Shown here: in pieces, positions 698 through 8,391 of the stretch | How the letters are laid out: every line of letters begins with the position of its first letter | Position numbering within the stretch: the stretch's first letter is position 1 | Origin: Blautia sp. | Lineage (GTDB): Bacteria; Bacillota; Clostridia; Lachnospirales; Lachnospiraceae | DNA length: 11,517 nucleotides | Direction: 5' to 3' | Assembly: GCA_017515945.1 (NCBI GenBank) | Contig: JAFWDX010000171.1 | Location: forward strand, 1-11,517 | The notes under the pieces: model-generated | What the model saw: the letters and a program-made list of their open reading frames with translations, nothing else | Told to the model about the DNA's origin: nothing | The model's database searches: none | Translations under genes and position numbers: made by a program

Positions 698-705
698 GAA
701 ATCCA

Positions 706-848
706 GGAATTGTTCAGTCAGCACCTCGCATTTATTGCGAGCGCGCGAGAAAAAGGTGAACAGCCATGGCCGGGCGCACTTTCATTGTGACGAAAGGAGC
801 TTGCGTCCGGCCTCGTAACTGTGAAGGAGATTTTGACTGAACAGTTAT
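706..848 (+). mobile_element. MITE-like repeat, copy A
   Basis: About 143 bp between araD and the PAP2 gene. The left end GGAATTGTTCAGTCA (706-720) and the right end TGACTGAACAGTTAT (834-848) are inverted repeats with a 12-base perfect core. Internal hairpins: CTCGCA/TGCGAG (725-730/736-741), GGCCGG/CCGGCC (768-773/807-812), and GTAACTGT (815-822) pairing with the right end (841-848). No target duplication is visible, so this is probably an old copy. It aligns over its whole length with copy E (8192-8336) and carries no 21-bp module. It has no coding capacity. Confidence 0.85.
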
Positions 849-860
849 AATATTTATATG
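833..860 (+). promoter_or_regulatory. Possible promoter formed by the right end of copy A
   Basis: TTGACT (833-838) overlaps the right terminal repeat of copy A and lies 16 bases before TATATG (855-860). This would place transcription start near 867, ahead of the PAP2 gene. The -35 matches consensus at 5 of 6 positions; the -10 is only 4 of 6. In copies C, D and E the corresponding position reads GTGGCT or GTGACT, so the match is specific to this copy. Inference only. Confidence 0.3.
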
Positions 861-884
861 CGTGTGTTTAACAGGGAAACTGTG

Positions 885-890
885 AAGGAG
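885..890 (+). promoter_or_regulatory. Ribosome binding site of the PAP2 gene, within a sequence shared with the repeat
   Basis: AAGGAG lies 4 bases before the ATG at 895 and is part of a 14-base string AACTGTGAAGGAGA (878-891) identical to 817-830 inside copy A. The site fixes the start and may have come from the repeat. Confidence 0.6.
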
Positions 891-894
891 AAAG

Positions 895-1560
895 ATGCGT
901 AGTAGTGCTATTCGCAGAAACTATCTGACAGCTGTGCTGCTGTTTGTTTTGTTTGTGATATTTACATTGATCGTGAAAAGCATTGATGTGGAGGCGATCG
1001 GGCCGCAGGGCAGCACAGTCGGCCTCGCAAGGTTCAACAGTATGGTACAGGAAGCCGTAAAAGCAGATCCCAAATGGGACCGCATCACAGACCTGCTTGC
1101 CCTTGTCTGCATCGCCATCGGCGTGGGATTCATGATCCTGGCGCTGAAACAGCTTATCAGCCGCAGGAGCCTGTGGAAGGTGGATTTCGGCCTTGTACTG
1201 CTGGCCGGGCATTTCGTACTGATGTGCGCGGCGTACATACTGTTTGAGAAGGTGATCATCAATTACCGCCCGGTACTGACGGACGAGGGACTGGAGGCGT
1301 CCTACCCCTCTTCCCACACGATGCTTGTGCTCTGCATCATGATCCCGGCCGTCATTCTTTTTCACAGGTATCTCACCCGTCACAGATTCCTGCTGGTCCT
1401 GGTTGACATCCTCTGTATCGCGCTGATCATACAGGCTCCGGTCGGGCGGATCATGGCAGGGATGCACTGGGCGACGGATGTGATCGGAGGATGTCTTATT
1501 TCCGTAGCGCTCAGCATGCTGTTTTACGCGGTACTGTTTCATTATGAAGAGGAGCATTGA
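895..1560 (+). CDS. PAP2-family (type 2 phosphatidic acid phosphatase) integral membrane phosphatase
   Basis: A membrane protein of 221 residues predicted to remove phosphate from a lipid or diphosphate substrate (undecaprenyl-diphosphate, phosphatidic acid or phosphatidylglycerol-phosphate are the usual ones) at the membrane surface. Hydrophobic segments lie near residues 10-30, 65-86, 98-117, 141-157, 165-182 and 196-215. The three catalytic motifs are visible: KVIINYRP (119-126), PSSH (138-141), and GRIMAGMHWATD (184-195), which holds the Arg-x5-His-x3-Asp arrangement with His 141 and His 191 as the catalytic pair. The first motif has five residues between Lys and Arg-Pro where the textbook form has six. 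The ATG at 895 is supported by AAGGAG at 885-890. Its stop is 3 bases before the DUF1292 gene, so the two are probably cotranscribed. The precise substrate cannot be read from sequence. Confidence 0.88.
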   Translation: MRSSAIRRNYLTAVLLFVLFVIFTLIVKSIDVEAIGPQGSTVGLARFNSMVQEAVKADPKWDRITDLLALVCIAIGVGFMILALKQLISRRSLWKVDFGLVLLAGHFVLMCAAYILFEKVIINYRPVLTDEGLEASYPSSHTMLVLCIMIPAVILFHRYLTRHRFLLVLVDILCIALIIQAPVGRIMAGMHWATDVIGGCLISVALSMLFYAVLFHYEEEH

Positions 1561-1563
1561 TCT

Positions 1564-1872
1564 ATGTCAGATGAAAAGACAAATGTAAATGATTACGAAG
1601 AGGTTGAGCTTGATGCCATTACCCTGACGCTCGACGACGGGACGGAGCAGGAGTTTGCCATTGTTGCCGTATTTGACCTGGGCGACAGGGACTATTGCGC
1701 GATCTGCCCGATCGTTGACGGCGATATCGTTGACGAGGAGAGCATCACCTTCTTCCGCTATTCAGAGGACGGTGAAGAAGTGACCCTGGACGAGATCGAG
1801 GATGAGGATGAATACGCCAGGGTCGCACAGGAGTACGACATTCTCGGAGAGGATGACGAGGCAGAGGACTGA
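1564..1872 (+). CDS. DUF1292 family acidic protein
   Basis: A 102-residue, very acidic protein matching the DUF1292 pattern widespread in Firmicutes. It has an N-terminal LTLDDGTEQEFAIVAVFDL strand region (about 26-44), the Asp-Tyr-Cys-Ala core near 48-51, the GEEVTLDEIEDEDEYARVA stretch (about 71-89) and an acidic tail. Function is not established for the family; it is cytoplasmic, with no signal or membrane segment. The start lies 3 bases after the PAP2 stop, and its ribosome binding site (GAGGAG) sits inside the last PAP2 codons, suggesting translational coupling. In other Firmicutes such genes often sit with conserved housekeeping genes, so the PAP2 pairing is not informative on its own. 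Confidence 0.85.
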   Translation: MSDEKTNVNDYEEVELDAITLTLDDGTEQEFAIVAVFDLGDRDYCAICPIVDGDIVDEESITFFRYSEDGEEVTLDEIEDEDEYARVAQEYDILGEDDEAED

Positions 1873-1898
1873 GTATAATTGTTCCCGTAATATAAACG

Positions 1899-6859: not shown

Positions 6860-6947
6860 TCCAGAAGGCCAGGCGCACTTTCAATGCGACGAGAGGAGCC
6901 TGGGCGTGGCCCCATAACTATGAAGGCGCTTGTGACTGAACAGTTAC
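6860..6947 (+). mobile_element. MITE-like repeat, left-truncated copy D
   Basis: Keeps the central hairpin GGCCAGGC/GCGTGGCC, the GTAACTGT-like arm (ATAACTAT, 6914-6921) and the full right end TGACTGAACAGTTAC (6933-6947). It lacks the left end and first hairpin. It starts about 10 bases after the permease stop and ends just before the ATPase ribosome binding site (GAGGAGG, 6954-6960). GTAA at 6847-6850 and TGAC at 6851-6854 could be a remnant of the left end, but this is not secure. Confidence 0.75.
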
Positions 6948-6968
6948 AGGACAGAGGAGGAAAAATTC

Positions 6969-8045
6969 ATGGCGAAAGAAAAAAAGGGTGTACGCCTTGA
7001 ACATATATCAAAAATTTATCAGGACCCAAAAACCAAAAAAGAATTCTATGCCGTCAAGGACACGACGCTGGACATTGAACCGGGAACCTTTGTCACGCTC
7101 CTGGGTCCCTCCGGCTGCGGCAAGACCACGACGCTGCGCATGATCGCCGGATTTGAGAGTCCGGATGAGGGTGAGATCTACCTGGGCGGAGAGCCGATCA
7201 ATGAGCTGACCCCGAACAAGAGGGATACGGCCATGGTCTTCCAGAGCTATGCGCTGCTTCCCCATTATAACGTCTTTGACAACGTGGCATACGGCCTGAA
7301 GATCCGTAAGCTGCCAAAAAGTGAGATAAAGCAGAAGGTTACCGATATCCTGCGCCTGGTCGAGCTGGAGGGGATGGAGTCCCGTATGACCAATCAGCTC
7401 TCCGGTGGTCAGCAGCAGAGAGTCGCGCTGGCCAGGGCGCTGGTGCTCGAGCCTGGCGTGCTGCTCTTTGACGAGCCGCTTTCCAACCTCGATGCCAAGC
7501 TGCGTGTGAGCATGCGCACCGAGATCCGCAAGATCCAGCAGAAGGTCGGCATCACGGCTATTTATGTCACCCATGACCAGTCTGAGGCCATGAGCCTTTC
7601 CGACAAGATCATCATCATGAGCAAGGGAAAGGTGGAGCAGATCGGCACGCCCAGAGAGGTCTACTACAGGCCCTCATCCAGATTTGTAGCGGACTTTATC
7701 GGCGAAGCGAATTTCCTGGATGCCAAAGTGAAGGAGGCGCGGGGAGAGAAGGCTTTGATCGAGGTAAACGGCGAAGAGATGGAGGTCAACAATTATATCG
7801 GCAGAAAGCCGGGCGAGGAGGCCTGCCTGGTGCTCCGCCCCGAAGCCGTCCTGCTGGCGGACAAAGGGCAGCTTCCCTGCGAGGTGACCCTCTCCACCTT
7901 TATGGGTGCATATCAGTACTATCAGGTAAAAGCCGGAGAGGTCACGGTGCAGATCACGGATTATAACCCGGTGAACAAAAAGATTTATGAGACAGGAGAG
8001 AAAGCTTTCCTTGACTTTGATACGGATGGCGTATATATTCTTTAA
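6969..8045 (+). CDS. ABC transporter ATP-binding protein (FbpC/PotA-like, with TOBE domain)
   Basis: A 358-residue ATPase that powers the importer. Walker A GPSGCGKTT (46-54), Q-loop FQSYALLP (91-98), signature LSGGQQQ (144-150), Walker B VLLFDEP (164-170), D-loop SNLDAKLR (172-179) and H-loop His 202 in YVTHDQSEA are all intact. Residues from about 245 on form the C-terminal TOBE-type ligand or regulatory domain (CLVLRPEAVLL near 286-296) common to the CUT1/FbpC/PotA group. The start is set by GAGGAGG at 6954-6960. Third gene of the transporter operon; a hairpin follows the stop. Confidence 0.93.
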   Translation: MAKEKKGVRLEHISKIYQDPKTKKEFYAVKDTTLDIEPGTFVTLLGPSGCGKTTTLRMIAGFESPDEGEIYLGGEPINELTPNKRDTAMVFQSYALLPHYNVFDNVAYGLKIRKLPKSEIKQKVTDILRLVELEGMESRMTNQLSGGQQQRVALARALVLEPGVLLFDEPLSNLDAKLRVSMRTEIRKIQQKVGITAIYVTHDQSEAMSLSDKIIIMSKGKVEQIGTPREVYYRPSSRFVADFIGEANFLDAKVKEARGEKALIEVNGEEMEVNNYIGRKPGEEACLVLRPEAVLLADKGQLPCEVTLSTFMGAYQYYQVKAGEVTVQITDYNPVNKKIYETGEKAFLDFDTDGVYIL

Positions 8046-8052
8046 AATAAAA

Positions 8053-8081
8053 ACCACACAGGGGACGGTTCTTTGTGTGGT
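8053..8081 (+). repeat. REP-like palindrome with GGGGACGGTT core
   Basis: ACCACACA (8053-8060) pairs with TGTGTGGT (8074-8081) around GGGGACGGTTCTT. No T-run follows on the + strand, but the A-rich flank on the left would give a T-run on the - strand. Hairpins with a GGGGACGGTTCT core recur in Firmicutes genomes in my recollection; the decamer GGGGACGGTT also occurs at 3108-3117. Confidence 0.6.
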
Positions 8082-8131
8082 ATACAATCGCAGAAATATA
8101 GCAGAATGTCGTATATCAAAGCTTTATTTGG

Positions 8132-8190
8132 CAGAGCCTCTGCATATACCGCGTTGAAAATGAGGTGCATTTTCCATTTATCTGATCGCG
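8132..8190 (-). repeat. Second repeat family, copy Y, split by MITE copy E
   Basis: In inverted orientation relative to 1936-2002: exact matches 8132-8153 (22 bases) and 8173-8187 (15 bases), with diverged sequence between. The family continues on the other side of copy E at 8337-8352 (GATCGCGTGAGTATAC, matching the complement of 1937-1950 with an indel). Confidence 0.7.
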
Positions 8191-8191
8191 C

Positions 8192-8336
8192 GTAACTGTT
8201 CAGTCAGCACCTCGCATGTACTGCGAGGTGCGTGAGACAAAAGCTGAACAGCCAAGGCCAGGCGCACTTTCAATGCAATGCAAGGAGTCTGAGCCTGGCC
8301 TCGTAATTGTGAAGGAGCTTGTGACTGAACAGTTAC
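8192..8336 (+). mobile_element. MITE-like repeat, full copy E with target duplication
   Basis: 145 bp, the best-preserved copy. The perfect 15-bp inverted ends are GTAACTGTTCAGTCA (8192-8206) and TGACTGAACAGTTAC (8322-8336). Flanks are GATCGCGC (8184-8191) and GATCGCGT (8337-8344), an 8-bp duplication with one difference. Hairpin 1: GCACCTCGCA/TGCGAGGTGC (8207-8216/8222-8231). Hairpin 2: AGGCCAGGC/GCCTGGCCT (8255-8263/8293-8301). Hairpin 3: GTAATTGT/ACAGTTAC (8303-8310/8329-8336). It carries no 21-bp module, so it probably shows the basic form. It lies in the guaA leader, unlike the copies at gene 3' ends. Confidence 0.92.
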
Positions 8337-8391
8337 GATCGCGTGAGTATACAGTATGGCTGATGCCTGTGTCCGGAGGGGAGGATGATTC

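Follow-up and report, generated by a model that had tools for sequence, protein, structure and literature searches.

A high-copy MITE family with ISBst12-type ends in a Blautia genome, most probably mobilized in trans and with a 34-bp reduced form

Miniature inverted-repeat transposable elements (MITEs) with hundreds of copies are already known in bacteria, as are palindromic insertions read in frame in Rickettsia (PMC10969869; this and the other PMC sources are cited throughout from excerpts), and copy number alone is no record because ERIC elements reach up to 711 copies (PMC10969869). The MITEs of PMC9769881, PMC3189936 and PMC11578231 are assigned to IS982, to IS5 (with a question mark) or an unknown family, and to IS1182, respectively, and the excerpt of PMC3281130 contains one general mention of MITEs. 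Elements of the ISBst12 group are treated in PMC8024623 and PMC12898284, and the latter reports as active the ISBst12-group element ISDge4, which has terminal inverted repeats (TIRs) GTGACTACTCAGCA / GTAACTGCTCAGCA and an 8-bp repeat, and terms the transposition of the IS66 family of insertion sequences (IS) insufficiently characterized. Here we describe a repeat family found in the 11,517-bp contig JAFWDX010000171.1 of a Blautia sp. draft genome (GCA_017515945.1), referred to below as the window. The element is a MITE, as it is short, has TIRs and a target-site duplication, and contains no transposase. We consider it highly likely, taking the parts together, that this is a non-autonomous ISBst12-type element that was moved in trans, shrinks to 34 bp and is partly tolerated in frame, where we infer both the identity of the transposase and the route of deletion.

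The draft genome (G000, with the window as contig C517) comprises 2,625,352 bases in 518 contigs and is 79% complete. It was analyzed as a first set made up of the window and 80 contigs (81 sequences, 510 kb; of these contigs, 40 were taken in order and another 40 were chosen for their matches) and as an enlarged set of 121 sequences (678 kb). An earlier sequence-only reading of the window had proposed a non-autonomous element present in copies and fragments, with three of six copies lying between 8-bp duplications (AAAATTTT, ACAGAATA and GATCGCGC/T), and all of this is borne out, the copies lying at the positions it gave. The 15-mer GTAACTGTTCAGTCA at ≤3 mismatches has 13 matches in the window, where 200 shuffles averaged 0.25 matches and never exceeded 3, and the window contains six MITE copies and two fragments (Table 1). 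The first set yielded 78 inward-facing end pairs of ≤400 bp (four of them 16-bp overlaps), and in the 76 that were testable the flanking 8-mers were identical in 33 and matched at ≤1 mismatch in 50, versus 0 and 0 when partners were taken from other copies. Duplication lengths of 3–7 and 9–12 bp gave at most 2 exact cases among the testable copies. The excess of 8-bp duplications on which the sequence-only reading had staked its interpretation is thus found across the contigs tested (50/76 at ≤1 mismatch versus 0), as are the empty sites that it had asked for in relatives. The binding-protein/permease/ATPase operon of the window is common to congeners, and no element is present at 4844–5029 in 4/4 congeneric loci read (L212, L213, L214 and L220), where the target or its homologue is present once (L213, for example, reads ..CTGACAGAATAACCC..), or at 6860–6947 in 5/5 (L212, L213, L214, L217 and L221).

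Empty sites also exist within the genome itself. A second, abundant family of palindromic repeats of ∼110 bp is present at 1936–2045 and 8132–8191 of the window, and these two stretches give 69 BLAST pieces in 678 kb, self matches included. The second-family sequence CATTTATCTGATCGCGCGAGTATA is empty in L124 and L139, where it is exact, and with changes in others, and in five places it carries an insert at one and the same base, namely in the window, L120, L121 and L140, and in L068 where the insert is a 34-mer. Insertion is real, because 8-bp duplications are accompanied by empty sites both in congeners and within the genome. That the repeats are instead fixed regulatory or structural sequences, comparable to REP or terminator families, would be in keeping with the strong folding of the 145-bp form as single-stranded DNA (z = −6.7), the mostly intergenic location and the tendency to follow gene orientation, but it is extremely improbable in view of the 8-bp duplications, the empty sites in congeners and in paralogous repeats, and the near absence of the family from 24 congeners.

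The TIRs of the element are 15 bp (GTAACTGTTCAGTCA), and the 77 inward end pairs in 678 kb span 34–305 bp with modes at 145 bp (27 pairs) and 166 bp (16 pairs), 187 bp being rarer; full copies are ∼143–188 bp. The 145-bp form, represented by 27 gapless copies with a mean divergence of 4.1% from their own majority sequence, consists of the TIR pair around a 10-bp hairpin (GCACCTCGCA..TGCGAGGTGC) and a 12-bp hairpin (AGGCCAGGCGCA..TGCGCCTGGCCT). By eye, the 166-bp and 187-bp forms have one or two extra 21-bp modules (CACCGAAGGCGTCCCTTGGGA or close to it) before AGGNGC. This hairpin module occupies up to three positions per element (window sites 2936–2976, 2991–3031 and 4900–4984), and in L117, L122 and L262 it appears by eye to be inverted in the opposite hairpin arm. 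This would fit two hairpin arms templating each other, and the compensatory changes counted in the three hairpin helices (0, 2 and 1 cells) are too few to support such templating. The 305-bp end pair has no open reading frame (ORF) of 80 amino acids (aa) inside. Longer end pairs in the 510 kb (983, 1433, 1772 and 2651 bp) were considered as autonomous elements and rejected, as by eye they enclose ordinary genes, e.g., those for release factor 3, a phosphomutase and a YicC-like protein.

The high density noted in the window by the sequence-only reading extends to the genome and hardly to its relatives. The 15-mer at ≤1 mismatch occurs 274 + 291 = 565 times in the draft genome and the reversed pattern 0 times, and the 15-bp ends are found 0–4 times per genome in the 24 congeners tested and 0–2 times per genome in 16 genomes outside the genus, showing that the family is lineage-specific among the genomes tested. 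One congener (G003) has one single 145-bp copy, and two further genomes (G068 and G069) appear to contain parts of the element. A goat-rumen Lachnospiraceae metagenome-assembled genome contains a 134-bp relative (L282:92-225) whose 15-bp ends are identical and whose outer 8-mers nearly form a duplication (ACCGACTC/ACCGAATC). Viral contigs gave no match to the paired ends or to the exact 34-mer and no relative of the L177 transposase described below; two stretches match a 17-mer. A search of the genome-contig collection with an exact 24-mer gave no match. Neighboring elements are not clustered, as the 7 pairs found within 60 bp are not above the expectation of ∼13 (135 elements over 85 kb; 0.095 per element), and three of these neighbor pairs consist of a full copy and a 34-mer in the same orientation exactly 8 bp apart (Table 1).

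Which transposase might move the element was approached through the IS66 domain PF03050, which is matched in 31 of 64 genomes of the genus. The draft genome has one such gene (contig C266), adjoining a tnpB-type gene (PF05717). We rejected this copy as the parent because by eye its right end reads GTAAGCGTCAAATAG, its contig has no MITE-type end, and the sole 3-mismatch end match there falls within the transposase gene. The ends of a congeneric classical IS66 element (L160) with an exact 8-bp duplication, GTAAGCGTC, are of the same kind as those of this copy. As a separate observation, the IS66 element of the draft genome has an extra 135-aa ORF (L150:543-950) between the tnpB-type gene and the transposase.

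Two elements with MITE-like ends were found among the 32 IS66 loci examined, both congeneric, and these are the two IS66 loci for which the single-ORF structure was read. The first (L177) is 1893 bp long with the TIR GTAACAGTTCAGATA, an exact 8-bp duplication (CTTCACTT) and a single ORF of 515 aa matching PF03050, and the second (L171) is 1696 bp long with the TIR GTAACTATTCAGAACC, an exact 8-bp duplication (ATATTTTT) and a broken frame. Of the full-length IS with these ends that the sequence-only reading had envisaged, none was found in the draft genome itself, and similar ends are present in congeners. Of 397 genomes of the family, 26 contain relatives of the L177 transposase, and the draft genome is not one of these. 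The core 12-mer GTAACTGTTCAG is present at ≤1 mismatch in 16 of 30 loci of these relatives (shuffled 12-mers, mean 0.33 and maximum 2 in 30 shuffles), in 0 of 16 strong classical PF03050 loci and in 5 of 13 other PF03050 loci. The MITE core also shares 11 of 12 bases with one end of ISDge4 (end sequence as excerpted from PMC12898284). The guess of an IS66-like mobilizer is therefore strengthened, and the ends support an assignment of the family as an ISBst12-type IS66 MITE, because the enrichment of the core at ISBst12-like loci goes beyond GTAA ends and an 8-bp duplication. The mobilizing enzyme is most probably a single-ORF ISBst12-type IS66 transposase acting in trans.

Three results weigh against this assignment. 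At two mismatches the core is also found in 5 of the 16 classical PF03050 loci; it is present in only 16 of the 30 L177-related loci, some of which are cut by contig ends; and neither the PF03050 search nor that for L177 relatives revealed a transposase bearing MITE ends in the draft genome, which is 79% complete and in 518 contigs. Duplications of 8 bp are also made by IS families other than IS66, and the lack of an ISBst12-like gene in the assembly leaves room for a member of another such family (IS256, IS6, ISL3, IS1595 or others) to move the element. We judge this improbable given the enrichment of the 12-bp core at ISBst12-like IS66 loci (16/30 versus a shuffled mean of 0.33). IS256 was rejected as the mobilizer as PF00872 has no match in the draft genome, in a search that did not extend to IS6, ISL3, IS1595, IS5 and further families.

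The sequence-only reading missed the 34-bp form, the relation to the reading frame and the bias in orientation. A recurrence scan of outward 8-mers showed a further peak at 34 bp (the control at this length being 0.4 of 303 ends), and right-end 34-mers (GTAACTGTGAAGGAGCTTGTGACTGAACAGTTAC, ≤7 mismatches) stand alone 60 times in 678 kb. A duplication at ≤1 mismatch flanks 26 of the 60, 11 of these being exact, including an irregular one (L085). Only one 8-bp direct repeat exists in the majority sequence of the 145-bp form, GTAACTGT at positions 1 and 112, and a deletion between these repeats gives exactly the 34-mer with both duplications kept. Other reduced forms with exact or near duplications are 16, 49, 61, 79, 83 and 100 bp, and three copies of 83–85 bp ending GCTGAACAGTTAC fit, by eye, what a 166-bp parent would leave after deletion between its 7-bp repeats (TGAACAG). 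We prefer deletion over independent mobility as the probable origin of the 34-bp form because its inner end lacks the TTCAG common to ISBst12-like ends. Two observations speak against deletion. The paired copies include none of 64 or 115 bp, the product lengths that the 7-bp repeats of the 145-bp form would predict, and duplications starting with GA are fewer in 34-mers (7/25) than in full copies (29/47; p = 0.0125), the targets of the 34-mers being purine-rich, a difference for which selection near start codons could be the source.

In the alternative, the 34-bp unit is itself mobile, the transposase taking the inner GTAACTGT of the right end as a second end. The number of 34-mers with a duplication (25 at ≤1 mismatch, beside 47 full copies, a number that is probably too low because contigs often end at repeats), their different target composition, their location ≤40 bp before a co-directional start in 17 of 59 cases versus 9 of 67 full copies, and the goat-rumen relative, in which the inner copy reads GTAACTGTTCA and is nearer a full TIR, all point this way. 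We nevertheless find it doubtful, since the inner end is without TTCAG after GTAACTG, the part common to ISBst12-like TIRs (GTAACTGTGAAGG), the unit is the exact product that deletion at the sole 8-bp direct repeat would give, synapsis would be sterically hard for two ends spaced by 34 bp, and the target differences could stem from selection that removes long copies close to starts. It is likewise unlikely that the 34-mer GTAACTGTGAAGGAGCTTGTGACTGAACAGTTAC is a transposon of its own with two facing ends, mobilized by an ISBst12-type IS66 enzyme with an 8-bp duplication and spreading in-frame insertions of 14 codons (VTVKELVTEQLQ plus the duplication) through the proteome of a gut commensal. 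If this were true, it would be among the smallest DNA units known to transpose.

The sums 34 + 8, 145 + 8, 166 + 8 and 187 + 8 are all multiples of three, and frame 0, which in the 34-mer translates as VTVKELVTEQLQ, is usually open, with no stop in 118 of 150 rows (protein-level matches being scored for 150 of 346 candidates). In-frame 34-mers are found in fruK-like, oppF-like, trmD and truB genes, lying near the C-terminus of the OppF-like ATPase, near the C-terminus of TrmD and near the N-terminus of TruB. The fruK-like case (L116) is a PfkB, 1-phosphofructokinase-like protein of 332 aa in which PF00294 spans the insert and the duplication has 2 mismatches; its nearest relative, at 70% identity, is without the inserted segment, and the insert region varies in length among 11 aligned relatives, two of which have other residues there. 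An Orn/Lys/Arg decarboxylase has the 34-mer twice, where the duplication is not clear, and a 166-bp copy directly after MKVR of an SdhB/FrdB-like protein is absent from eight aligned relatives. After the flanks were joined, 13 of the 86 elements with a recognizable duplication fell in a scored ORF, and the frame was kept open by all five 34-mers among them and by 1 of the 8 longer copies, several of which are at an ORF edge. The insert peptides may be expressed.

Frames of ≥195 aa account for 21 of the 150 rows, and the 11 of these 21 that were read weigh against tolerance of full-length copies in frame, as in 10 of the 11 the copy begins no later than codon 30 of the frame, in most cases ahead of the likely start codon, and the remaining one is near the frame end, some frames being perhaps spurious. 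On the strength of the 11 frames read, nearly all with the element at their very start, full-length copies in long frames were not counted as internal gene insertions. For N-terminal inserts, translation may begin behind the insert.

Insertions favor 5′-GA targets, as the duplications of 47 full copies start with G (65%) and then A (76%) on the element strand. ORFs were called by a simple longest-ORF rule and the gene-context counts are therefore approximate. In tandem gene contexts, full copies point the same way as the genes in 23 cases and the other way in 9 (p = 0.02), and 34-mers do so in 24 and 5 cases (p = 0.0005); taken alone, neither the 145-bp class (10 to 5, p = 0.30) nor the 34-mers with a clear duplication (9 to 3, p = 0.15) reach significance. 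Full copies located ≤15 bp past a stop codon number 15 in the gene direction and 3 against it (12 and 4 for 34-mers), and those located ≤40 bp ahead of a start number 9 and 3 (17 and 2 for 34-mers). Of the 67 full copies, 5 lie inside called ORFs, as do 12 of the 59 34-mers, and some of these ORFs are spurious. Insertions within genes are strongly depleted, because 3492 of 4000 random points fall inside ORFs, and the family is mainly intergenic.

We propose the following history for the family. A single-ORF ISBst12-type IS66 transposase would have moved the element in trans, making an 8-bp target duplication each time, and the source of this enzyme may be absent from an assembly that is 79% complete, or may since have disappeared. 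Once inserted, copies would shrink by deletion between the GTAACTGT direct repeats (positions 1 and 112), a step probably favored by the intervening hairpins, and the 34-bp unit would be left behind with both duplications kept. Some insertions in or at the edge of genes would be tolerated because adding 8 to each of these lengths gives a number divisible by three and because frame 0 is mostly open.

The features of the window, together with the three neighbor pairs, are listed in Table 1. The copy at 2913–3099 starts 8 bp past the stop codon ending at 2904, and an Rfam search of the window at gathering thresholds gave no match. The protein of the ORF at 1957–2904 contains tandem LLGGLLGGGMQQQQQ-type repeats (window 2570–2840).

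Table 1. Coordinates of the MITE copies, fragments and target duplications of the window, and of neighbor pairs on other sequences.
Feature	Position	Strand	Remark
MITE copy, 143 bp	706..848	+	No recognizable target duplication, 4 mismatches between flanking 8-mers
Right-end fragment	1899..1921	+	
MITE copy, 187-bp form, two 21-bp modules	2913..3099	+	Flanking 8-mers differ at 3 positions, no recognizable duplication
Left 8-bp target duplication AAAATTTT, exact	3397..3404	.	
Short form, 49 bp, both TIRs present	3405..3453	+	
Right 8-bp target duplication AAAATTTT, exact	3454..3461	.	
Left 8-bp target duplication ACAGAATA, exact	4836..4843	.	At end of binding-protein gene
MITE copy, 186 bp	4844..5029	+	Site empty in four congeneric loci read
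Right 8-bp target duplication ACAGAATA, exact	5030..5037	.	
34-bp form, decayed	5047..5080	+	
MITE copy without left end (by eye)	6860..6947	+	Site empty in five congeneric loci read
Left 8-bp target duplication GATCGCGC	8184..8191	.	Within second repeat family
MITE copy, full-length 145 bp	8192..8336	+	
Right-end 34 bp of copy 8192–8336	8303..8336	+	Same unit elsewhere alone between 8-bp duplications
Right 8-bp target duplication GATCGCGT	8337..8344	.	
Full copy + 34-mer pairs 8 bp apart	L121:3003-3189, L112:3699-3885, L145:5722-5929		Same orientation

Our literature search, in open-licence papers and among the matches listed, found no MITE assigned to IS66 or the ISBst12 group and no Lachnospiraceae MITEs, and the term IS66 is absent from the main text of the MITE review PMC10969869. 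We tentatively regard the MITE family, with its unusual reduced form, as new, and do so with reserve because the search was confined to open-licence papers. With its numerous insertions flanked by duplications, its naturally varying ends and its preference among targets, the family makes it possible to deduce from sequence which minimal ends this transposase group needs and how it chooses targets. A further point of interest is a system of in-frame insertion like that of the Rickettsia palindromic elements (RPE) outside Rickettsia, and one with a likely mobilizing family.

Compared with known systems, the element is like the ISBst12 group, as described for ISDge4 in the excerpt of PMC12898284, in its ends of the type GTAACTGNTCAG and its 8-bp duplication, and the congeneric L177 has the single-ORF IS66 transposase; it differs in being 145–187 bp long without a transposase ORF and with no autonomous partner found in the draft genome. 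With the bacterial MITEs Correia, ERIC, Chunjie and MITECca01 (PMC10969869 and PMC9769881, as excerpted) it shares short length, high copy number, a mostly intergenic location and the lack of its own transposase, whereas the ends and the parent family differ and the 34-bp form here keeps its duplication. REP and REPIN sequences are also short, palindromic, intergenic and of high copy number, but the present family has 15-bp TIRs starting with GTAA and 8-bp target duplications. The RPE, compared here by description, are likewise palindromic and in frame inside protein genes (PMC10969869, as excerpted), and RPE-like in-frame insertions, with putative translation, are found here in fruK-like, oppF-like, trmD, truB, sdhB/frdB-like and decarboxylase genes. 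The RPE are mostly in genes, however, whereas this family is mainly intergenic and has 8-bp duplications and a likely transposase family.

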